A stretch of DNA of 64,000 bases from Clostridiales bacterium (lineage in GTDB: Bacteria; Bacillota; Clostridia; Oscillospirales; CAG-272). A program made the translations under genes and the position numbers. Location: NCBI GenBank assembly GCA_012727435.1, contig JAAYHB010000015.1, positions 1-64,000 on the forward strand, written 5' to 3'. Of the stretch, positions 17,360-32,527 are shown in pieces (positions within the stretch are counted from its first letter, which is position 1; each line of letters opens with the position of its first letter). The notes beneath the pieces are model-generated. The model searched no databases. It had not been told where the DNA came from and saw nothing but the letters and a program-made list of their open reading frames with translations.

Positions 17360-18409
17360 TCAAATAAATCCGAGTATCTTATCTGTCATTTCGTCTGTCG
17401 TGAGCTGTCCGCCGATATCGCAGGTCATATATCCTGCCTCAAGCGCCTTGTTGACAGCATCTTCAATAGCATCGGCTTCCGCGGCCAGCCCGAAGGAATA
17501 GCGGAGCATCATTGCGGCCGACAGGATCGTCGCCGTCGGGTTTGCAATGCCCCGCCCGGCGATATCGGGCGCCGAGCCGTGTATAGGCTCATACATCCCG
17601 CGGCTCCCCTCACCCAGCGAGGCCGAAGGCAGCATGCCTATCGAGCCGGTGAGCTGTGAGGCCTCGTCCGAGAGGATGTCGCCGAACATATTCGAGGTCA
17701 CGATAACGTCAAACTGCGCCGGATTGCGGACAAGCTGCATTGCGGCGTTGTCGACCAGCATGTCGCTGTACTCGACATCGGGATACTCTGCCGCAAGCCT
17801 GTGCATTGTCTCGCGCCAGAGGCGGGAGCTCTCGAGCACATTTGCCTTGTCAATGCTTGTGACCTTCTTTCTGCGCTTGCGCGCCGTCTCAAAGGCCACT
17901 CTGCCTATCCTCTCAATCTCCATGACGCTGTAGCACTCGGTATCATAGGCCTCCTGTCCGTTTGGGCCTTCGCGCCGCCCGCGCTCGCCGAAATATATCC
18001 CGCCGGTAAGCTCCCTGACAATCACAAGGTCAAAGGTATCCTCAATGCGCAGCGGGCATCTGCCGCGCAGCGCGGGATAGAGCTTTGCCGGGCGGATGTT
18101 TGCATACAGCCCAAGCGCCTTGCGCAGTCCGAGCAACGCGCGTTCGGGGCGCAGATGTCCCGGGAGGGTATCCCACTTCGGGCCGCCCACGGCACCCAGC
18201 AGCACGCTGTCGCTCTCAAGGCACCTGTCTACCGTCGCCTGCGGCAGCGGCTCGCCTAACTCGTCAATCGCACAGCCCCCGGCCAAAAGCTCCGTGCATG
18301 TGATTTGATGCCCGTACTTCTCGGCTACTTTGTCAAGCACCCTGAGCGTGCTGTCGACAATCTCGGGGCCAATCCCGTCACCCTTTACCAGAGCAAGATT
18401 AAGTTTCAT
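17360..18409 (-). CDS. leuB: 3-isopropylmalate dehydrogenase
   Basis: [24 protein letters not shown]...[57 protein letters not shown]. Confidence 0.97.
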
Positions 18410-18473
18410 ATATATTATCCTTTCTTACCCGCGGCACTCCGTGCAGGTCGTCGGCCCGCAGGTATACTCTCCT

Positions 18474-18983
18474 TTATTTTCGGGTCTTATCTCCGATAGC
18501 ACCCGACCTGACCGCGCCTACAAGCCCGCCGGCGGCAATAATCGACTGGATGAAAGCCGGGAAGGGCTGCGCCTTGTATTCCCTGTTCTTTGTTATATTC
18601 CTAATCAGCCCGGTATCAAAATCCATCTCGACTTCGTCACCGGCCTCTATTTCGTCTGCCGCAGCCTCGCACTCGACTATCGGCAGCCCGATGTTTATCG
18701 CGTTGCGGTAGAAAATCCGGGCAAAGCTCTTGGCGATTATAAGGGCAATCCCGCTCTCCTTAATTGCGATAGGCGCGTGCTCGCGCGAGGAACCGCAGCC
18801 GAAGTTGCGCCCCGCGACCATTATGTCGCCCGGCTTCACACGCCTGACAAACTCCCGGTCTATGTCCTCCATGCAGTGGGAGGCCAGCTCCTTTTTGTCG
18901 GCGGTGTTGAGGTATCTTGCCGGGATAATCACGTCGGTGTCTACATTGTCCCCGTATTTGAGAACCCGCCCTTTGACCTTCAT
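18474..18983 (-). CDS. leuD: 3-isopropylmalate dehydratase small subunit
   Basis: [23 protein letters not shown]...[22 protein letters not shown]. Confidence 0.96.
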
Positions 18984-20248
18984 CAGCTTATGACCTCCTT
19001 CGGATGCGAGATTTTACCGGTCACGGCGCTTGCCGCCGCAACATATGGGCTTGCAAGATACACCTCGGACTCGGGGTGACCCATCCTTCCGACAAAGTTG
19101 CGGTTTGTCGTGGCCACCGCCCTCTCGCCTTTTGCGAGTATGCCCATGTGGCCGCCGAGACACGGCCCGCAGGTCGGCGGCGAGACCACCGCCCCCGCCT
19201 CAAGGAATATGCGGAGCAGCCCCATCTCAAGCGCCTCAAGATAAATCTTCGGGGTTGCGGGGATGACAATCGTCCTCACGCCCCTGGCGACCTTCCTGCC
19301 TTTAAGCACTTCAGCAGCCTGGATAAGATCCTCAAGCCGCCCGTTTGTGCAGGAGCCGATAACCACCTGATCTATCTTTATCTCGCCGAACTCATCAAAT
19401 GTTTTCGTATTCCCCGGCAGATGCGGGAAGGCCACCGTCGGCTCGATATTTGACATATCTATTTCAATTACCTGCTCGTATTCGGCGTCCTCGTCGGCCT
19501 CGTATATTACCGGAGGCTTGGCGCCGGCCTTCTTGAGGAATTCAAGGGTCTTTTCGTCAACCGGGAAGATGCCGTTCTTGGCTCCCGCCTCAATTGCCAT
19601 GTTGGCCATGCAGAGCCGGTCACTGACCGACAGCTCGGCCACCCCCGGCCCTCTGTATTCCATCGAGCGGTAGAGCGCGCCGTCCACCCCGATTTTGCCG
19701 ATTATGTGCAGTATCACGTCCTTGCCGGTCACCCACCTGCCGGGCTTGCCGGTCAGGTAGAATTTTATCGCCGGGGGAACCTTGAACCACGCCTTGCCGG
19801 TCGCCATTCCGAAGGCCATGTCGGTCGATCCGATGCCAGTCGAGAATGCGCCGAGCGCGCCGTATGTACAGGTGTGCGAGTCGGCGCCGATTACCACGTC
19901 ACCGGCCGTGACAAGTCCCCGCTCGGGCAGCAGTGCGTGCTCGACCCCCATCTCGCCGCCGTCAAAGAAGTTTTTGATTCGCTTTTCCGCGGCAAACTCG
20001 CGGCAGAGCTTGCACTGCTCGGCGGCCTTTATATCCTTGTTCGGGGCGAAGTGGTCCATGACCAGCGCCACCTTTGAATTATCAAACACCCCCGCCCTGC
20101 CGAACTTTGAGAATTCGTTTATCGCCACCGGGGAGGTGATATCGTTGCCGAGCACCATATCGACATCGACCAGCACTATCTCCCCGGCCCGTACCGAATC
20201 CACGCCGGCATGGGCGGCCAGAATTTTCTGGGTCATCGTCATTTTCAT
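18983..20248 (-). CDS. leuC: 3-isopropylmalate dehydratase large subunit
   Basis: [25 protein letters not shown]...[13 protein letters not shown]...[14 protein letters not shown]. Confidence 0.97.
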
Positions 20249-20260
20249 AAATATGTCTCC

Positions 20261-21823
20261 CTATTTGAGCAGTTTGTATTCTATCGAATCGACAAGGGCG
20301 ATAAGGCTGGCTTCGATGATGTCGTTTGACACGCCCACAGTCGTCCATGTGCTCTTCTCGTCGGTCGTCTCAATCAACACGCGGACTCTGGCGGCGGTGG
20401 TGCAGTTGGATTCAAGCACGCGCACCTTGTAGTCGGTAAGCCTCATCTCCTTGATGGACGGGTAAAACACCACAAGCGCCTTGCGCAGCGCCAGGTCAAG
20501 CGCGTTCACCGGGCCGTTGCCCATGACCGCGGTCATCTCCTCCTTGCCGTCGACCTCGACCTTAATAGTCGCCGAGGCCGGCATTTCGCCTTCCGCCACA
20601 GGGAACTCGCTCATGATTTTATACATCACGAGCCTGAAAGCAGGCTTGTACAGGCCTAGAACCTTCTTGACAAGCAGCTCAAAGCTCGCGTCGGCCGCCT
20701 CAAAATGATACCCGTAATGCTCAAGCTCCTTGAGCTTCTCAAGTATTTCGGAAGTTTCCTTTGAGTTCTTCTCAAGGTGCGGCGCGAAATGCTTGATTTT
20801 CGCCAGCACGGTGCTGCGCCCAGAAACCTCGGACATGAGGAACCTGCGCTTGTTGCCTACCAGCGCCGGGTCGATATGTTCAAATGAGCAGGACTTCTTG
20901 AGCACTCCGTCTATGTGCATGCCGCCCTTGTGGGCAAAAGCGCTCGCGCCTACATACGGCTTTGTGTTGTCAATCTGGGTGTTGGATATCTCGGCTATCT
21001 TTCTTGCGGTATCCGAGAGTATCGACATATCCCGGCAGCACTCAAAGCCGCGCTTTAGCACAAGATTGGGAATGATTGCCGAGAGGTTGGCGTTGCCGCA
21101 GCGCTCGCCTATCCCGATAAAGGTCCCCTGCACATGCGTCGCCCCGGCCTCGACCGCCATCAGAGTGCTGGCGACCGCACAGTCTATATCGTTGTGGCAG
21201 TGGATGCCGATTTTCTTACCGGGAAATGCCTCCACCACCTTCTTTGTGATATTGTAAATATCCGACGGTAGGGTGCCGCCGTTGGTGTCGCAGAGCACAA
21301 GAGTCGTGGCCCCGCCCTCGGCTGCCGCCGATAGCACGCTCATGGCATACGACTCGGAGGCTTTGTACCCGTCAAAAAAGTGCTCGGCGTCGAATATCAC
21401 TTCTTTTGATTCGGACCTTAAGTACTCTATGGTGTCCCTGACCAGCTCAAGGTTTTCCTCAAGACTGATTCTGAGTATCTCGGTCACATGTAATTCCCAC
21501 GCCTTGCCGAAAATCACGACCACCGGCGTGTTGGCAGCCAGGAGCGACTTTATGTTTGCATCGTCGCAGGCCGCCACGTTGTGCCTGCGGGTGCTCCCGA
21601 AAGCGCAGAGCTTTGCGTGCCCGAGTTTTAAGTCCGAGGCCTTCCCGAAAAATTCAAGGTCCTTCGGGTTTGAACCGGGATTTCCGGCCTCGATGAAATC
21701 GATACCGAACTGGACAAGCGTCTCCACAATATTTAATTTATCATTTACCGAAAAGGAAATTCCCTCACCCTGAGCTCCGTCCCTCAGGGTCGAGTCAAGT
21801 ATTTCGATTCTACGACCTTTCAA
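20261..21823 (-). CDS. cimA: Citramalate synthase (CimA type)
   Basis: RRIEILDSTLRDGAQGEGISFSVNDKLNIVETLVQFGIDFIEAGNPGSNPKDLEFF; alpha-IPM-synthase fold with the CimA-type N-terminus and a C-terminal LeuA-type regulatory domain. Confidence 0.9.
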   Translation of the reverse strand: MKGRRIEILDSTLRDGAQGEGISFSVNDKLNIVETLVQFGIDFIEAGNPGSNPKDLEFFGKASDLKLGHAKLCAFGSTRRHNVAACDDANIKSLLAANTPVVVIFGKAWELHVTEILRISLEENLELVRDTIEYLRSESKEVIFDAEHFFDGYKASESYAMSVLSAAAEGGATTLVLCDTNGGTLPSDIYNITKKVVEAFPGKKIGIHCHNDIDCAVASTLMAVEAGATHVQGTFIGIGERCGNANLSAIIPNLVLKRGFECCRDMSILSDTARKIAEISNTQIDNTKPYVGASAFAHKGGMHIDGVLKKSCSFEHIDPALVGNKRRFLMSEVSGRSTVLAKIKHFAPHLEKNSKETSEILEKLKELEHYGYHFEAADASFELLVKKVLGLYKPAFRLVMYKIMSEFPVAEGEMPASATIKVEVDGKEEMTAVMGNGPVNALDLALRKALVVFYPSIKEMRLTDYKVRVLESNCTTAARVRVLIETTDEKSTWTTVGVSNDIIEASLIALVDSIEYKLLK

Positions 21824-21841
21824 GCTATGTTCTCCTTATCG

Positions 21842-23359
21842 TCAGAATTCAAGGAGCTTGTTGATACCGTTTACATAAGCAAGTATGCTCGATTCGATAA
21901 TATCTGTCGAAACCCCGCGGCCGGTGACCACCCGCTCGCCGGCTTTGAGCTTTACCGTCACCTCGCCGAGCGCGTCGTTCCCGCCGGTCACCGAATGAAT
22001 GGTGTAATCCAGCATCTCTTCGCAGAGGTTGCCGGTTATTTTGTCTATGGCATTGTAGGCGGCATTGATAGGCCCGTCGCCCAGCGACACCTCCTCAAGT
22101 ATCTCATCGTCTTTTTTCAACCTGACCACACAGGTTGCCCGGGAGTTCTTGGCGGTGTGGACGTCGAAATATTCAAGCTCATATGTCCGCCCCGAGCGGT
22201 CCTTGTTGTACACTATGGTCTCGATGTCGCTGTGGGTGATGACCTTCTTCCGGTCGCAGAGCTCGATAATTTTTTCATAATACACATCGAGCTCCTCTTT
22301 TGTGAAAGAATAGCCCATTTCCTTCAGATATTCCTCAATAGCATGCCTGCCCGAGTGCTTGCCCAGCACAATCCTATTCCGCGCAAGCCCGATGTCCTCG
22401 GGGGACATGATTTCATAGGTTGTGCGCTCGGCCAACACACCGTGCTGGTGTATGCCGGCTTCATGCGCGAAGGCATTTGCACCGACTATCGGTTTGTTTA
22501 TTGCCGCGGTCTGCCCGATGATGTTGTATACCAGCTTGCTGGTGGGGCTTATCTGCTTTGTGTCGATGCCGGTATAGCAGCCGAAGTAGTTTCTTCTGGT
22601 CTTTATCGCCATGACCACTTCTTCGAGCGCCGCGTTGCCGGCGCGCTCGCCCAGCCCGTTGACAGTACACTCAACCTGAGTTGCCCCCGCCCTGACCGCC
22701 GCCAGCGTATTGGCGGTCGCCATGCCGAGATCGTTGTGGCAGTGCACCGATATTTCGGCCTTGTCGATATTCGAAACCTTCTCGCGCAGGTAGCGTATAA
22801 TCCGGTCCATTTCCTCGGGAACGGCATAGCCTACCGTGTCGGGGATGTTCACAGTCGTCGCCCCGGCAGCAATAGCCGTCTCGACTACCCTGGCGAGGAA
22901 TTCGGGATCACTGCGCATGGCGTCCTCGGCCGAGAACTCGACATTCGAAAGATACTTCTTGGCATACGCGACCGCGGCAGCTGTCCGCTCCAGCACCTCT
23001 TCGGGGGTCATCCTCAGCTTATACTGCATATGTACCGGCGATGTGGCGATGAAGGTGTGAATCCGCGGGGAAACCGCACCCTTTACCGCCTCGTAGGCCG
23101 CATCTATATCCTTTTCGGTCGCACGGGCGAGCGAGGCTACCACGCAGTTCTTTACAGTCTTTGAAATCGCCTCAACCGACTTGAAGTCCCCGGGCGACGA
23201 GATGGCAAATCCCGCCTCAATCACGTCGACCTTCAGGGCCTCAAGCTGTTTTGCAATCTCAAGCTTTTCCTCAAGATTCATGCTGCAGCCGGGAGCCTGC
23301 TCGCCGTCCCTCAGGGTGGTATCAAAAATCTTAATTCGTCTCTCCATGATAATCTCCAT
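21842..23359 (-). CDS. leuA: 2-isopropylmalate synthase
   Basis: IKIFDTTLRDGEQAPGCSMNLEEKLEIAKQLEALKVDVIEAGFAISSPGDF. Confidence 0.96.
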   Translation of the reverse strand: MEIIMERRIKIFDTTLRDGEQAPGCSMNLEEKLEIAKQLEALKVDVIEAGFAISSPGDFKSVEAISKTVKNCVVASLARATEKDIDAAYEAVKGAVSPRIHTFIATSPVHMQYKLRMTPEEVLERTAAAVAYAKKYLSNVEFSAEDAMRSDPEFLARVVETAIAAGATTVNIPDTVGYAVPEEMDRIIRYLREKVSNIDKAEISVHCHNDLGMATANTLAAVRAGATQVECTVNGLGERAGNAALEEVVMAIKTRRNYFGCYTGIDTKQISPTSKLVYNIIGQTAAINKPIVGANAFAHEAGIHQHGVLAERTTYEIMSPEDIGLARNRIVLGKHSGRHAIEEYLKEMGYSFTKEELDVYYEKIIELCDRKKVITHSDIETIVYNKDRSGRTYELEYFDVHTAKNSRATCVVRLKKDDEILEEVSLGDGPINAAYNAIDKITGNLCEEMLDYTIHSVTGGNDALGEVTVKLKAGERVVTGRGVSTDIIESSILAYVNGINKLLEF

Positions 23360-23432
23360 GCCGCCTGTGGCGGCGGTCTGATTTATTCCAGAACTGTCCG
23401 GTTAGCCGGTTATTTTATTATAAGCACAACTG

Positions 23433-25124
23433 TCATTCGTAGTTAATAATCGCTCCCCTGTCGGCAGAGGATACGTTCCTTGAGTACCTGAGGATGTAGC
23501 CCGAGAGCCCGGATTTGACTTTAAGCTGGGTCTCCTTCTTGCGCCGGCGCAGCTCCTCTTCGGGCACTTCAAGGTTAATCGTGTAGGCGGGTATGTCGAT
23601 TGAGATAATGTCGCCCTCCCTGACATATGCAATCGGGCCGCCGCGCGAGGCTTCGGGCGAGATATGGCCTATAGCCGCGCCGCGGGTGGCGCCCGAAAAA
23701 CGCCCGTCGGTAATCAGCGCGACGTCCTTGTCAAGCCCCATGCCGGCAATTGCCGAGGTGGGACCTAACATCTCGCGCATACCCGGGCCGCCCGCCGGCC
23801 CTTCGTAGCGGATGACGACAACGTCGCCCTTGTTGATCCTGCCGCCGTAAATGGCCTTGATTGCCTCCTCCTCGCCGTCAAAGACTCGAGCAGGGCCGCG
23901 GTGGACCAGCATCTCAGGTGCAACGGCGCTGCGCTTGACCACCCCGCCGTCGGGCGCGAGCGAACCGAAGAGTATTGCAAGCCCGCCGGTCTTGGAATAG
24001 GGATTTTCAACCGGCCTGATAACCGTATTGTCGATTACCGGCAGACTGTATGCTCGATTTTTTATGTTCTCCCCCATGGTCCTGCCGGTAATGCTCATAA
24101 CATCCGGGTCATAAAGTCCGGCGTCTATAAGTTTTTCAATTACCTTATACACTCCGCCGGCGTTGTACAGGTCCTGCATGTGGTGCGGCCCGGCGGGGGC
24201 GAGCCGGCAGAGATTCGGAGTCGACTCGCTGACCTCGTTTATGGTCTTAAGGCTAAATCTCACACCCGCCTCGTTTGCTATCGCCAGCAGGTGCAGCACC
24301 GAGTTGGTCGAGCAGCCGAGCGCCATGTCGACGGCCAGCGCGTTCATAAAGGCTTTTTCGGTCAGGATGTCACGAGGCTTTATTCCGAGCTTTAAGGTCT
24401 CTATGACCTGCTCGCCGGCGGCCTTGGCAAGCATAATGCGCTTTGAGAAGACTGCAGGAATCGTGCCGTTGCCCGACAGCGCCATTCCGAGCGCTTCTGT
24501 GAGGCAGTTCATCGAGTTTGCTGTAAACATCCCCGAGCAGGAACCGCAGCCCGGGCAGCAGGAGTCCTCAATTGCCGCAAGCCCGGCCTCGTCAATGGTG
24601 CCGTTCTTGTAAGCCCCGACCGCCTCAAAGGCGCTGTTCAGGTCGAGCGGCCTGCCGACAGCGTCCCTAAGCGAGAGCATCGGCCCGCCCGAGACAAAGA
24701 CCGAGGGGATATTGAGCCTCGCCGCCGCCATGAGCATGGCGGGGACAATTTTATCGCAGTTCGGCACAAAGACCAGTGCGTCAAAGCAATGCGCGCGGGC
24801 CATGCACTCGATGCTGTCGGCGATAACCTCGCGTGAGGAAAGCGAGTACTTCATGCCCTCATGCCCCATGGCTATCCCGTCGCAGACGCCTATGACATTG
24901 AATTCCACAGGCGTGCCGCCGGCGGCAAGAATTCCGTCGTGGACCGCCGCTGCAATACTCCTCAGATGAATATGCCCCGGCACTATCTCGTTAAACGAGT
25001 TGACTATGCCGACCAGCGGCTTTTTAAGCTGGCTGTCGGTATATCCCATCGCCTTGAAGAGCGACCGGTGGGGCGTCCTCTCAACGCCAGATTTTACTTT
25101 ATCGCTTGTCATTGCCGATACCAT
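23433..25124 (-). CDS. ilvD: Dihydroxy-acid dehydratase
   Basis: [15 protein letters not shown]...[36 protein letters not shown]...[20 protein letters not shown]; start at internal Met after AAAGGA. Confidence 0.97.
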
Positions 25125-25203
25125 AAATCCTTTCAAACAAAGTTTGCCGATCTCTGCCCGGCCCGCTTTCCTGATGTATTTCCGAACCAAGAGGCGGTTT
25201 ATT

Positions 25204-26208
<1,005 letters not shown>

Positions 26209-26229
26209 TTATTTATAAAAAATTTTGTA

Positions 26230-26727
26230 TTACAGATTCTGCAGTCCGCGGTTTACCGCCAGCGCCCCCGCGCGGCACATCTCGATAATCATGTCGTTTT
26301 GCTTTGCAAATTCGATGAATGCGCTGAGCTTTGAGGGCTCTCCGGTTATCTCGATAATCATCGAATCGGCGTTGAAGTCAACCACCTTGCCGCGGAAAAC
26401 ATTGACCGCTTCGGTGATTTCGGGTCTGGTGGCAGGCGTCACCCTGAGCTTTATCAGAAGGTGCTCCCGCAAAACCGTCCTGTCGGGGTCCATGAACTCG
26501 ACCTTTTTGACGTCGTGCAGCTTCCGAAGCTGCTTTACTATCTGGTTTTTGACATAATCGTCTCCTCTGGCGATAATTGTCATCCGGGAGTATTCGGGGT
26601 TCTCGGTTTCGCTGACGTTCAGGCTGTCGATATTGTATCCTCTGCGAGAGAAAAGCCCTGACACCCTGGTCAGCACGCCGAAGTGATTGGACACTATTAC
26701 GCCTAATATAAACTGCTCCTTTTGCAT
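26230..26727 (-). CDS. ilvN: Acetolactate synthase small subunit
   Basis: ILGVIVSNHFGVLTRVSGLFSRRGYNIDSLNVSETENPEYSRMTI ACT domain. Confidence 0.96.
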   Translation of the reverse strand: MQKEQFILGVIVSNHFGVLTRVSGLFSRRGYNIDSLNVSETENPEYSRMTIIARGDDYVKNQIVKQLRKLHDVKKVEFMDPDRTVLREHLLIKLRVTPATRPEITEAVNVFRGKVVDFNADSMIIEITGEPSKLSAFIEFAKQNDMIIEMCRAGALAVNRGLQNL

Positions 26728-26741
26728 TTTTGCCCTCCCTG

Positions 26742-28403
26742 CTATTTGACAATTATGTCGTCAATCGACCCGCCGGCCGGAATCATCGGCAGCACGTTCT
26801 CGTCGGTATCTATCCTGCAGTCGATCACAAACGGCCTATCCGCCGCAAATGCGGCTTCAAGCGCCCTGTCAAGCTCGGCTGCCGTCCAGGCCCTCGCTCC
26901 ACCGGCCCCGAAGGCTTCGGCAAGCTTTACGAAATCGGTTTTTCTGTTCAGCGTCGAGTTGGAATAGCGCTGCCCGTAAAAGAGCTTCTGCCATTGTCTG
27001 ACCATTCCGAGCACGCCGTTGTTCATTATGATTATCACAATCGGCAGGTTGTTCGACACGGCGGTCGCAAGCTCGGTGAGGTTCATGCCGAAACTCCCGT
27101 CGCCGGTAAAGAGCACAGTCTTCGCTCCCCCCGACGCAAAGCAACCGCCGATAGCGGCGCCCAGGCCGAAGCCCATGGTGCCGAGCCCGCCGGAAGTCAG
27201 GAGGGTGCGCGGCTTTCTGAACCTGTAATACTGCGCCACCCACATCTGGTGCTGGCCGACGTCGGTCGCGATGACGGTATCCTCATTCGTGTAGCGCTGA
27301 ACCTTCTCGATTATGGCCTTGGGGTGCATTTCCTTTCCGGTCGGATAGAAAGAGATTTCTTCCTCTATCATTTTGGCGACCTCGGCTCTCCACTCGGGCC
27401 GTCTGGCAGGGCTCAGCTTTGCGTTTATCCCCTTTAGTATCTCGCCGACATCCCCGACAAGTCCGATATTTGCCGGGATGTTCTTGTCGATCTCCGCCGC
27501 GTCGATGTCTATGTGTATGAACCTGGCGTTCTGCGTGTATCTCGTCTTGTTGCCGGTGGCGCGGTCCGAGAAGCGGACCCCGACTCCGATTATCAGGTCG
27601 GCCTCCGACTTTGCCTTTGTCGAGGCATAACGCCCGTGCATGCCTGCCATTCCGAGGCAATATTCGTAGTCGCTCGACACCGCCGAGAGCCCCATCATGC
27701 TGAAACCGACTACCGCGTCGGTCAGCTCGGCAAGTTTCTTTACCTCCCCGCCGGCGCCCGAGGCGACAACTCCTCCTCCGCAGTAAATATAGGGCTTTTT
27801 TGACTTTTCGATTAGCTCGACCGCACGGTCGATTTCGTCCTCATCGGGCTTTGGAGTGCTGAACTTCTGTATCGGCCCGCCCGGCGTGTACTCGCACCCG
27901 GCTATCTGAATGTCCTTCGGTATGTCTATTAGCACCGGCCCCGGCCGGCCCGACCGGGCAATCGTGAAGGCCTCCCTGATTATCCCCGCAAGATCCCTGA
28001 CGTCCTTTACAATGTAGTTGTGCTTGGTTATAGGCATCGTGACGCCCATGATGTCTACTTCCTGAAAGCTGTCCTTGCCGAGCAGGGGCAGGGCTACGTT
28101 CCCGGTGATGGCGACAAGCGGCGAGGAATCAAGATATGCGGTTGCAATACCGGTCACAAGATTTGTAGCCCCCGGCCCCGAGGTGGCGATCACAACCCCC
28201 ACCTTTCCCGAGGCACGGGCATAGCCGTCGGCGGCGTGCGCCGCGCCCTGCTCGTGGGCCGAGATGACATGGCGGATGCGGTCGCTCGACTTATACAGTT
28301 CGTCATATATGTTGAGCACGGCACCGCCCGGGTAGCCGAACACGCGGTCGCACCCCAGCTCGATCAATGTCTCAACTATAATCTGTGCTCCGTTCATCTT
28401 CAT
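26742..28403 (-). CDS. ilvB: Acetolactate synthase large subunit
   Basis: MNGAQIIVETLIELGCDRVFGYPGGAVLNIYDELY; ThDP-binding GDGSFGMNLTELATAVSNNLPIVIIIMNN. Confidence 0.97.
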   Translation of the reverse strand: MKMNGAQIIVETLIELGCDRVFGYPGGAVLNIYDELYKSSDRIRHVISAHEQGAAHAADGYARASGKVGVVIATSGPGATNLVTGIATAYLDSSPLVAITGNVALPLLGKDSFQEVDIMGVTMPITKHNYIVKDVRDLAGIIREAFTIARSGRPGPVLIDIPKDIQIAGCEYTPGGPIQKFSTPKPDEDEIDRAVELIEKSKKPYIYCGGGVVASGAGGEVKKLAELTDAVVGFSMMGLSAVSSDYEYCLGMAGMHGRYASTKAKSEADLIIGVGVRFSDRATGNKTRYTQNARFIHIDIDAAEIDKNIPANIGLVGDVGEILKGINAKLSPARRPEWRAEVAKMIEEEISFYPTGKEMHPKAIIEKVQRYTNEDTVIATDVGQHQMWVAQYYRFRKPRTLLTSGGLGTMGFGLGAAIGGCFASGGAKTVLFTGDGSFGMNLTELATAVSNNLPIVIIIMNNGVLGMVRQWQKLFYGQRYSNSTLNRKTDFVKLAEAFGAGGARAWTAAELDRALEAAFAADRPFVIDCRIDTDENVLPMIPAGGSIDDIIVK

Positions 28404-28520: not shown

Positions 28521-28637
28521 TTACTCGATAACAATGCTCTCGAATACACAACCATTATTGCCCGCGACAATAAGTACCCGTAGTACGAGTACGAGTACTA
28601 GTATGGCAATAATAGCTGCAAACGCGAAGAACATCAT
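28521..28637 (-). CDS. Branched-chain amino acid leader peptide (38 aa)
   Basis: MMFFAFAAIIAILVLVLVLRVLIVAGNNGCVFESIVIE*; GAGGAG SD before the ATG pair; 14 of residues 9-25 are Ile/Leu/Val; terminator between it and ilvB. Below the size cutoff of the ORF track. Confidence 0.85.
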   Translation of the reverse strand: MMFFAFAAIIAILVLVLVLRVLIVAGNNGCVFESIVIE

Positions 28638-28666
28638 TATCTCCTCGGGCGCTTTTGATTCTCTAC

Positions 28667-28802: not shown

Positions 28803-31772
28803 TCACTTCCCTTTTTTAGTAAGGAACCGAATGGGCTTATCAAGGATAATGAGGAGCGCCGGGAGCACGAACACCGTCATGATAACCGCGCATATGCCGC
28901 CGCGCATTATGGCATGCCCCAGCATGCGGACGGTCGGAAAGCTGCTTGTCAGCCCCAGAATAAGCCCGCCAACCGCAAATATGCTGCCGGAGGTCAGAAT
29001 CGAGCGCAGCGAGGTGCTCTGCGCCTCGGCCACGGCGCCGGCCTCGTCAAGCTTTTTCCTCGCCTCAAGGTAATTTGAGGTGAGCAGTATGGCATAGTCT
29101 ATTGTCGCGCCGAGCAGGATATTGCTGATTATGAGATACCCGACAAAGACCATATGCTCGCCGAGCAGGTAGGGTATGCTCATGTTTATCCATATAGCCC
29201 CCTCGATAACCGCTACGAGCATGACCGGAATCAGCGCCGAGCTGAAGCTGAGCGCCACGACCGCCGCGACTGCGGCAATCGAATAGGCAGTTATTCTGTT
29301 GAAATCGACGCTCGTGTGCTCCTCGATGTCGGCCGCGGCGGCCGTGTTGCCGAGCAGGTAGAATTCGTCGGAGCCGTACACGTCCGAAACAGTCTGGCGC
29401 ACCGCCGAAAGCATCTCCCTTGCCTCGTCGCCCTCTTCTTCGCATTCAAGGTACAGAAGCACCCTGTTGAACTTGTCTCTGCCCGTAAACTGGGCCTTCA
29501 GCACGTCGGGTAAAAGCGTGTTCATGCCCGAGTCGGCCATCTGCGCCCACGACACCACGCTCACAACCCTGTCAATGCCGGCCAGCCGCTCGCCGAGGAC
29601 GAGCTCCTTGTGATAGTTTTTTGGCACCAGCACCGCAAGCTGCTCCTGCGTGCCGAAGACCTCCTCGGCGGCCCTGCGATTTTCCAATACTTTACTGTCG
29701 GCCGGCAGGGTGGCAGACCTCCCGTAGGTAAAAGTATTCTGCCCTGCCAGATATGCCGCGGGGACTATCAGGGCAAAGGCAAGGACGACGACCACCCAGC
29801 GGTATTTGACCGAGAATCGCGAGAGCCCGCCGGTACCGAGCTTCAGCGCTTTATGCTCACTCTTTATTATGAGCTTATCGGAATACACGACCAGCCCGGG
29901 CAGAAAGAGGAATACCGTGAGAAAGCTCAGTATTATCCCCTTTGCCATCACGACGCCCATGTCAAATCCCAGCTTGTATTTCATGAATATGACCGTGACA
30001 AAGCAGGCCACGGTTGTAAGCGAACTCGCAAGAATCGGGGCGAGCGAACCTCTCAGCGCCCGTGTCATCGCTTCCTCAGCCTCAACCCCGCCTGCGCGCT
30101 CACGCTTGTAACGGTTGATGAGGAAGACCGCATAGTCAATCGAGAGGGCAAGCTGCAGTATGCTGGCCACGTTCTGGGTGAGATAAGAAACATCGCCGAG
30201 CAGCAGGTTGCTACCCATGTTCAGGATTATGGCCGAGGCTATTGCGGCAATATAGAGCAGAGGCTCAAACCACGACGAGCTGAATATCAGCAGTATGACC
30301 AGCGCGACAATTACCGCCAGTGCTGTCGCCCGGAGTATTTCGCTCCGCTGGTCCTGCCGCTCATAGTATGTGTGCGTCGCGTTGCCGAAAAGATGAAGCT
30401 TCTCTGATATCGAGACGATCTCCCCCACCGCCCGGCTGGTTGCTTCGGCGTAGTCGCCGTCGGAAAAGGCAATTGAAAACAGCGCATGCCCGTCCTTGTA
30501 AAGTCTTCCGACCTCGGTATGAAAGCCGTTGACTATATCGGCATATCCGGCCCCCAGTGGGGAGGAAACACGCATAAGGTCGCCGGCATCCGCATCCCAC
30601 GAGATATCGCCATCATAGAACTCGCCGAGCAACGGCAGAATATATGCAAGCTCTTCCCCGCTGAACTCCCGGGTCAGCGCAAGAAGAAGATCATATACAG
30701 CCGCCCCGTCACCGGTCGGCAGCACACGGGAAAGCCGCTCAAGATAATACAGTGCGTCGCCCCCGCTGAGCGGAACACCCTTGAGGTTCAGCAGGATTAC
30801 ATAGTCGATAATTGCGGGAAGCATCCCCCCATCCGAGAGTACCGGTTCAAGTGAGGTCAAGCTCTCTTTTGCGGCTGAAATTGCCGCCAGCGACTCAGCA
30901 GGAACCGGCATCATAAGAACCTGCGGATCGGAGAGGTCTATGCCCGAAAAATCCATGCCGAGCGAGGAGAGCAGTTGCATTACAACCGGCAGCTCCTGTG
31001 TGGTAAATGCCGCCGCCAGCGCCGAGTAAATATCATAGAAGGTAGTCCCTTCGGCCGACGGGAGGCAGGCTATCGCCTGCATTAAATAGGTTAATGCCTG
31101 ACCGGCCGACAGCCTGCCCGACATATTGACCGCGACCAGGGCGTCGATAAACCCCGGCAGAAACCTGACGATGTCCGAAGCACCCCCGACCTGCCCTGCC
31201 AGCGCCCGGGCGGCACTCAGGTATTCGTCCGGCAGCGGCTCTGTAAGCGCCATCAGGCGCTCAATGTCAAACTCATTTCCGCCATCCGGGAGCATATTGC
31301 CGAGCGAGCCCGAAATAAGCGTCAGCTCATCCTCCGAAAACCTGCTTTTCAAGGCAAGCGCAAGCCCGTATGGCGTTGTATCTTCTTTCTCGGGCAGGGC
31401 TTCCAGCAGCCGCAGAAAAAGTTCGACAACCTGAGAATCCGAAAGTCCGGTATCCTCTGCCAGCGGCAAAAAGATGCTGTCAAGCCAGATGACGCTCTCA
31501 ACGCCCTCAACAGCCTGAATTTCGGCCTTTATCCGCAGGACTTCTTCAATATCTCCCGAGTCAAGCATTGCCTGCGCCGTCCCTACGCCGCCGAATTCGC
31601 CTTCCATGACCAAAAATCCTGCCTTGGTGTTTGACGAGTCGGGCAGGTATTTTGTATCGTCATAATTGACCCTCACATACGGCATACACGCCGCCGAAGC
31701 TATCAGCGCCGCGGCAAAGAGGATACAAAATATCATTCTTTTTTTTACTATAAAGCTGCAGATGCGGTTCAT
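28803..31772 (-). CDS. MMPL/RND-family transporter
   Basis: 989 aa, two halves each with a large extracytoplasmic loop and TM bundle (LSIDYAVFLINRYKRER; GATIDYAILLTSNYLEARKKLDEAGAV). Confidence 0.92.
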   Translation of the reverse strand: MNRICSFIVKKRMIFCILFAAALIASAACMPYVRVNYDDTKYLPDSSNTKAGFLVMEGEFGGVGTAQAMLDSGDIEEVLRIKAEIQAVEGVESVIWLDSIFLPLAEDTGLSDSQVVELFLRLLEALPEKEDTTPYGLALALKSRFSEDELTLISGSLGNMLPDGGNEFDIERLMALTEPLPDEYLSAARALAGQVGGASDIVRFLPGFIDALVAVNMSGRLSAGQALTYLMQAIACLPSAEGTTFYDIYSALAAAFTTQELPVVMQLLSSLGMDFSGIDLSDPQVLMMPVPAESLAAISAAKESLTSLEPVLSDGGMLPAIIDYVILLNLKGVPLSGGDALYYLERLSRVLPTGDGAAVYDLLLALTREFSGEELAYILPLLGEFYDGDISWDADAGDLMRVSSPLGAGYADIVNGFHTEVGRLYKDGHALFSIAFSDGDYAEATSRAVGEIVSISEKLHLFGNATHTYYERQDQRSEILRATALAVIVALVILLIFSSSWFEPLLYIAAIASAIILNMGSNLLLGDVSYLTQNVASILQLALSIDYAVFLINRYKRERAGGVEAEEAMTRALRGSLAPILASSLTTVACFVTVIFMKYKLGFDMGVVMAKGIILSFLTVFLFLPGLVVYSDKLIIKSEHKALKLGTGGLSRFSVKYRWVVVVLAFALIVPAAYLAGQNTFTYGRSATLPADSKVLENRRAAEEVFGTQEQLAVLVPKNYHKELVLGERLAGIDRVVSVVSWAQMADSGMNTLLPDVLKAQFTGRDKFNRVLLYLECEEEGDEAREMLSAVRQTVSDVYGSDEFYLLGNTAAAADIEEHTSVDFNRITAYSIAAVAAVVALSFSSALIPVMLVAVIEGAIWINMSIPYLLGEHMVFVGYLIISNILLGATIDYAILLTSNYLEARKKLDEAGAVAEAQSTSLRSILTSGSIFAVGGLILGLTSSFPTVRMLGHAIMRGGICAVIMTVFVLPALLIILDKPIRFLTKKGK

Positions 31773-31951: not shown

Positions 31952-32527
31952 ATGAAGCGAGGGCCGAAAATGTCAACCGACAGGAGAATACGCTACACGA
32001 AAATGGTGCTCCGCGAAAGTCTCATCAAGCTCATGCAGGAGAGGCCGATATCAAGAATTACCGTGAAGGCCATATGCGAGGAGGCCGACATCAACCGGGC
32101 TACTTATTACGCGCACTACAGAGACCCGCACGACCAGCTCAACCAGATCGAAGCGGAGTTCATCGAGGGCATCGAGGAATTTCTCAGAGACATACCCGAG
32201 ACGGTACCGGCCGATATAGTGACGAAAATATTCGAATACATCCGCGAAAACCGTGAACTCTGCCGCACCCTGCTCAAAGGCGATATCGCATTTGAGGACA
32301 GGGTGCTGCAGATTATCCGCGCGGCGGTTTTCAGGTCCTGGAATGGCACAGACGTTGAGGCCGGCTCGCTATATGACTACATTTATACCTACACGTTGGT
32401 AGGCAGCGTAGGGGTGGTCAAGAAATGGCTTGAGGACAAAGCCGGGAAGTTCAGCGCGCGCGACATGGCAAATCTTGTGCTGAACCTGACCGAAAAAGGC
32501 GTCGGCGGCAGCCTGAATCAACCTTGA
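31952..32527 (+). CDS. TetR/AcrR family transcriptional regulator
   Basis: RIRYTKMVLRESLIKLMQERPISRITVKAICEEADINRATYYAHYRDP helix-turn-helix; divergent from the MMPL gene. Confidence 0.92.
   Translation: MKRGPKMSTDRRIRYTKMVLRESLIKLMQERPISRITVKAICEEADINRATYYAHYRDPHDQLNQIEAEFIEGIEEFLRDIPETVPADIVTKIFEYIRENRELCRTLLKGDIAFEDRVLQIIRAAVFRSWNGTDVEAGSLYDYIYTYTLVGSVGVVKKWLEDKAGKFSARDMANLVLNLTEKGVGGSLNQP

Follow-up and report, generated by a model that had tools for sequence, protein, structure and literature searches.

An Ile/Leu/Val-rich leader peptide and a predicted ribosome-mediated attenuator upstream of the ilvBNCD-leuA-cimA-leuCDB operon in an uncultured member of the Clostridia

Organization of the operon and its leader

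The window analysed here is a stretch of 64,000 nucleotides from a draft genome (G000; 1.78 Mb in 27 contigs, about 94% complete), the host being an uncultured, probably gut-dwelling member of the class Clostridia. Its minus strand carries nine consecutive genes, ilvB-ilvN-ilvC-ilvD-leuA-cimA-leuC-leuD-leuB, separated by intergenic gaps of -1 to 85 nt. The first gene of this operon, ilvB (26742-28403), encodes the large subunit of acetolactate synthase (TIGR00118), and the remaining genes, ilvN to leuB (17360-26727), were likewise assigned by NCBIfam. Together the nine genes cover the synthesis of Ile, Leu and Val, with citramalate synthase representing the isoleucine route.

Upstream of ilvB the minus strand harbors a short open reading frame (28521-28637) with the translation MMFFAFAAIIAILVLVLVLRVLIVAGNNGCVFESIVIE. 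This ORF and its peptide are exactly as given in a preliminary description of the locus, and the Shine-Dalgarno sequence GAGGAG (28646-28641) and the sigma-70 type promoter TTGACA-17-TAAACT (28695-28667) reported along with it were likewise found. The promoter is the top promoter-like match of the leader region and has a perfect -35 box; both hexamers are identical in a second genome of the same genus (G002), where GGGAG occupies the place equivalent to the Shine-Dalgarno sequence. Only the start codon has to be reconsidered. The preliminary description used the first ATG (28637, giving 38 aa), whereas the second ATG (28634, giving 37 aa and an ORF of 28521-28634) is the likelier start, since the first one is replaced by ATA in G002 and since the Shine-Dalgarno sequence is spaced 6 nt from the second but only 3 nt from the first.

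The central part of the ORF (28566-28613) is formed by the putative regulatory codon run ATT ATT GCC ATA CTA GTA CTC GTA CTC GTA CTA CGG GTA CTT ATT GTC, which encodes mainly Ile, Leu and Val and contains two rare CTA codons. When both strands of the whole window are considered, no other Shine-Dalgarno-preceded ORF of 12-60 aa has 11 Ile, Leu or Val residues out of 12. The runner-up, located within the neighbouring transporter gene, reaches 8 of 12, and this value was not exceeded in the corresponding ORFs of 15 simulated windows of matched dinucleotide content. As the run is unique in the window and without equal in the simulated ones, it lies beyond chance expectation.

Immediately upstream of the leader lies the gene of a 989-aa MMPL/RND-type transporter (28803-31772), followed further on by a divergent 191-aa ORF (31952-32527), which by eye resembles a TetR-type regulator. 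A terminator-like site of its own is present at the end of the MMPL-family transporter gene (28798-28781), which makes it most likely that the leader is transcribed separately from the upstream transporter, from a promoter of its own.

Predicted secondary structures of the leader

The leader ORF is separated from the ilvB start (28403) by an intrinsic terminator, GAATCTTGCAATACACACAATGCATTGCAAGATTTTTT (28475-28438), with a strong stem and a U-run, which is kept in G002. Neither this terminator nor the competing antiterminator was reported in the preliminary description, yet both are present. The terminator was found by folding; a simple terminator scan misses it because its loop is longer than 8 nt. 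The full-length leader folds into a protector hairpin and the terminator with a free energy of -74.3 kcal/mol compared to -47.6 kcal/mol in shuffled sequences (z = -6.65). The predicted protector hairpin (1:2; 28527-28641, -49.5 kcal/mol), which represents the ribosome-free state, extends over nearly the whole ORF.

If folding is begun 3' of the Ile/Leu/Val run, a different pairing is obtained. Region 2, the 3' part of the ORF (TTGTGTATTCGAGAGCATTGTTATC, 28551-28527), then serves as 5' strand of an antiterminator and pairs with region 3 (GATAACATTGAATCTTGCAATACACA, 28484-28459), which shares sequence with the terminator 5' arm and thereby withdraws it from the terminator stem. Between the stall site and the terminator loop, the RNA is predicted to adopt this antiterminator fold with z = -4.42, and none of 200 shuffles equals it. 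In a model that omits the RNA covered by the ribosome and discards all RNA 5' of it, the probability of the terminator is 0.94-0.96 in the ribosome-free state, 0.25-0.49 with a ribosome stalled in the run and 0.95-0.96 with the ribosome at the stop codon. In the latter position the ribosome hides just part of region 2, which begins 28 nt upstream. Such an equilibrium switch is clear only in the source species and in a Ruminococcus MAG (L057). For most relatives, the terminator remains the favoured equilibrium fold when the ribosome is stalled as well, and a switch there would therefore rest on co-transcriptional kinetics. The structure predictions, together with the coevolution across 16 lineages described below, argue for an antiterminator that is mutually exclusive with the terminator and would be freed by a stalled ribosome.

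The same anatomy could in principle serve a different purpose, namely an action of the leader peptide on ilvB translation or mRNA stability by uORF coupling, in which case the terminator would be of secondary importance. Alteration of the regulatory codons before ilvB of Streptomyces coelicolor was reportedly without effect (PMC1262725), thus similar anatomy need not mean classical attenuation. Nevertheless, we consider coupling very improbable for the present leader in view of the strength of the terminator stem, its U-run and its conservation; furthermore, the fold displays only the protector, antiterminator and terminator, although the folded stretch excluded the ribosome site of ilvB.

Rare leucine codons

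The codon CTA accounts for 2% of the Leu codons across the window but for two of the five in the leader, and it is missing from all 139 Leu codons of the adjacent membrane transporter. In the first set of leaders compiled, 13 CTA codons were observed where 1.0 was expected from the genes of the same loci, and in 16 lineages CTA makes up 20 of 73 leader Leu codons and is present in 12 of them. The Salmonella leu leader contains CUA codons as well, and their replacement by CUG is reported to cost it its sensitivity (PMC1183508). The enrichment across Clostridia lineages agrees with theory and with the Salmonella data on CUA-sensitised Leu attenuators (PMC1183508). From this enrichment and the Salmonella precedent we infer that Leu, via the rare CUA codons, is most likely the main signal, with Val (GTA) and Ile being tested by the run in addition.

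Conservation in related genomes

Promoter, frame of the Ile/Leu/Val core, region 2, region 3 and terminator are all retained in G002. Within the core, the two sequences differ only by synonymous, Ile to Leu or Val to Ala changes, and the single gap of 3 nt is in frame and located before the core. G002 lacks the C-terminal tail of the peptide but keeps the pairing segments and the terminator. The preliminary description would have taken a coding frame not conserved in relatives as evidence against a leader peptide; in fact the core frame is intact in G002, and many relatives have a comparable ORF, with Shine-Dalgarno sequence and terminator, before ilvB. Shine-Dalgarno sequence, Ile/Leu/Val run and terminator are found before ilvB in genera g1, g3, g4, g9, g22, g36, g95 and g99 of the same family, and leaders are also present before ilvB in two further families of the order (G067, G084). 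Named Clostridia with a leader include Oribacterium sinus (L051) and Ruminococcus MAGs (L057 and, weaker, L073).

In a survey of 114 regions upstream of ilvB within the family and order, which used simple rules anchored on ilvB only, 21 regions were classified as leader, 31 as T-box by an approximate text pattern and 62 as neither, the last class including some operon-internal cases in which ilvB is not the first gene. Two additional leaders (L118, L119) were found by hand beyond the rule-based calls. At a stage where a terminator was not yet required, a score of at least 7 was reached by 19 of 110 real regions and by 5 of 110 reverse-complemented ones, and given this background the single weak cases L116 and L163 are uncertain.

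These comparisons also bear on the possibility of a functional small membrane protein encoded by the ORF, with an unrelated terminator downstream. The 37-aa peptide is indeed very hydrophobic, and hydrophobic small proteins of about this size exist. However, the peptide matches no Pfam family, the peptides diverge and vary in length outside the Ile/Leu/Val run, and in G002 the tail of the protein disappears where the pairing segments of the RNA stay. The enrichment of a rare Leu codon fits sensing and not protein yield, and similar leaders recur before ilvB with a terminator in between. A membrane protein function is very improbable.

Coevolution of the ORF end and the terminator

As the leaders are too divergent in length and sequence outside the pairing segments for a covariance model, the predicted pairing of regions 2 and 3 was analysed by a swap test, in which each ORF end was combined in silico with the terminator 5' arm of its own and of every other lineage, and row and column means were removed. 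For 16 lineages the cognate combinations exceed the permuted ones in stability (-41.6 versus a standard deviation of 8.7, that is about 4.8 standard deviations), with none of 20,000 permutations being as low (p<5e-5). Subsets of six lineages carrying an S-C-[A/V] coda yield p = 0.04-0.06. Tested locus by locus, the pairing is mostly non-significant; the support is collective.

The peptide coda [N/D]S..SC[A/V], intact or degenerate, is found in g1, g3, g4, g22, G067 and L037 and is situated inside the pairing segment. It is conceivable, and we put it forward tentatively, that the leaders of this Clostridia family represent one homologous class of ilvB attenuators, which has been repeatedly swapped with T-boxes, even within one genus. 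The hallmarks of this class would be rare CUA codons in nearly all members and an [N/D]-S-x-x-S-C-[A/V] coda, the codons of which at the same time form the antiterminator. In general, sensing systems are known to be exchanged (PMC2965389).

T-boxes and leaders before ilvB

No match to the T-box (RF00230) was obtained in the leader at either the gathering or a relaxed threshold, and no Rfam family was matched at the leader site. The hits returned by Rfam at relaxed threshold (eukaryotic snoRNA and miRNA families, an archaeal-type sRNA and one enterobacterial sRNA) were rejected as chance. The source genome contains six T-boxes, all of them away from the ilvB leader. One is located before valS (L032, G000:C23:72630-72905), so that in the source species valS apparently relies on a T-box and ilvB on a leader peptide. 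No CodY gene was found in the source genome (about 94% complete), which speaks against a CodY-regulated ilv-leu operon.

In many relatives ilvB is controlled by T-boxes. In G001, another member of the genus, ilvB is 58% identical and is placed in a different operon (ilvA ... leuD-leuB-ilvB, with putative continuity from ilvA to leuD). The ilvA gene is preceded by two tandem T-box matches (L201, 4737-5167) of 69.6 and 40.3 bits (E = 5e-15 and 2e-7), both below the gathering score. A single family, and even a single genus, contains ilv-leu operons with either type of sensor. One region (L200) had been assigned to both T-box and leader by the text pattern; the T-box assignment proved to be a false positive, as the covariance model finds no T-box there, and the leader is present.

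A T-box or other ligand-binding RNA with the ORF as a chance by-product, as the T-boxes at ilvB of many relatives and the six in the source genome itself (including that before valS) might suggest, is hardly probable given the lack of any T-box match in the leader at both thresholds, the constrained coding frame and the outcome for L200.

Proposed mechanism of attenuation

The ORF, its Shine-Dalgarno sequence, the promoter, the terminator, the mutually exclusive pairings and their conservation can be read directly from the DNA. On the basis of sequence and modelling, the leader of the ilvBNCD-leuA-cimA-leuCDB operon is very probably a classical ribosome-mediated transcription attenuator. The terminator and antiterminator, the kept frame and the comparable ORFs before ilvB of relatives all support the preliminary description in its reading of the locus as leader-peptide attenuation.

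Transcription would begin just 5' of the ORF, and a ribosome would follow the RNA polymerase while translating the leader. With ample charged Leu-, Val- and Ile-tRNA, the ribosome would reach the stop codon and cover region 2, so that region 3 could not pair with it, the terminator would form and transcription would stop before ilvB. Upon shortage of Leu-, Val- or Ile-tRNA, the ribosome would stall within the Ile/Leu/Val codons and open the protector hairpin; region 2 would be freed to pair with region 3, that is with the 5' arm of the terminator, and the polymerase would read through into the operon. In the absence of translation the protector hairpin would form and the terminator would win. 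The translation of the leader, the stalling, the termination and the response to starvation are inferred from this anatomy, and the leader resembles a classical starvation sensor where relatives employ a T-box RNA.

Comparison with known systems

In its layout the leader is comparable to the attenuators of ilvGMEDA, ilvBN and leu in E. coli and Salmonella, which share a short ORF enriched in codons for the end products of the operon itself as well as protector, antiterminator and terminator hairpins. Contrary to these, a single leader precedes a combined ilv, leu and cimA operon here, and it does so in Clostridia. Within the Bacillota, a leucine-rich peptide ORF and a terminator before the ilv-leu operon of Staphylococcus aureus provide a closer parallel, with genetic evidence for attenuation (PMC5794164). 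That peptide consists of 26 aa and is located before ilvD, with CodY acting in addition (PMC5794164), whereas no CodY was found in the source genome. Furthermore, the S. aureus antiterminator pairs with the U-run (PMC5794164), whereas the one described here takes the terminator 5' arm.

ORFs rich in branched-chain residues and followed by a terminator before ilvB are also known from the Corynebacterium ilvB-II motif and ilvBNC attenuator and from the ilvB-OMG and Leptospira ilvB motifs; for Corynebacterium ilvBNC a three-hairpin model has mutational support (PMC10272879, PMC11857589). Corynebacterium and Leptospira belong to other phyla, and the present leader is without an Rfam match in a library that may not include ilvB-OMG. 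The T-box riboswitches of ilv-leu operons in Bacillota, relatives of the source species among them, control the same genes but sense tRNA directly and without an ORF, whereas the present leader has an ORF and no T-box.

The kind of mechanism is therefore already known, and the leader and its counterparts in relatives are a new set of such attenuators. The statement in the preliminary description that a peptide attenuator would be notable in this phylum is overstated, since leader peptides for branched-chain amino acids have already been described or predicted for Staphylococcus, Lactococcus, Streptococcus and Corynebacterium (PMC5794164, PMC10272879), as well as predicted ones of his operons for Eubacteriales (PMC9413887). 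The Corynebacterium study considered that uORF attenuation of ilvB may be common (PMC10272879). For uncultured gut Clostridia, which are usually associated with T-boxes, the present set adds well-supported leader-peptide attenuators for branched-chain amino acids. As the ORF has no Pfam match and the RNA no Rfam match, automatic annotation likely misses leaders of this type.

Leaders in distant lineages

Leaders before ilvB were also found outside the Bacillota, namely in the Lentisphaerota Oligosphaera ethanolica (L039) and Lentisphaerae bacterium SIG80 (L044). Phage records contained nothing resembling the leader. In Brachyspira pilosicoli (L115) an Ile/Leu-rich short ORF, MKSFFKHFNQTNISIILLSLIIIL, is located 193 nt before ilvB, with no terminator detected. 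In Lentisphaerae bacterium SIG80, two Ile/Val-rich leader ORFs are arranged in tandem 426 to 98 nt before ilvB, each of them followed by a terminator, and this arrangement possibly constitutes a double attenuator.
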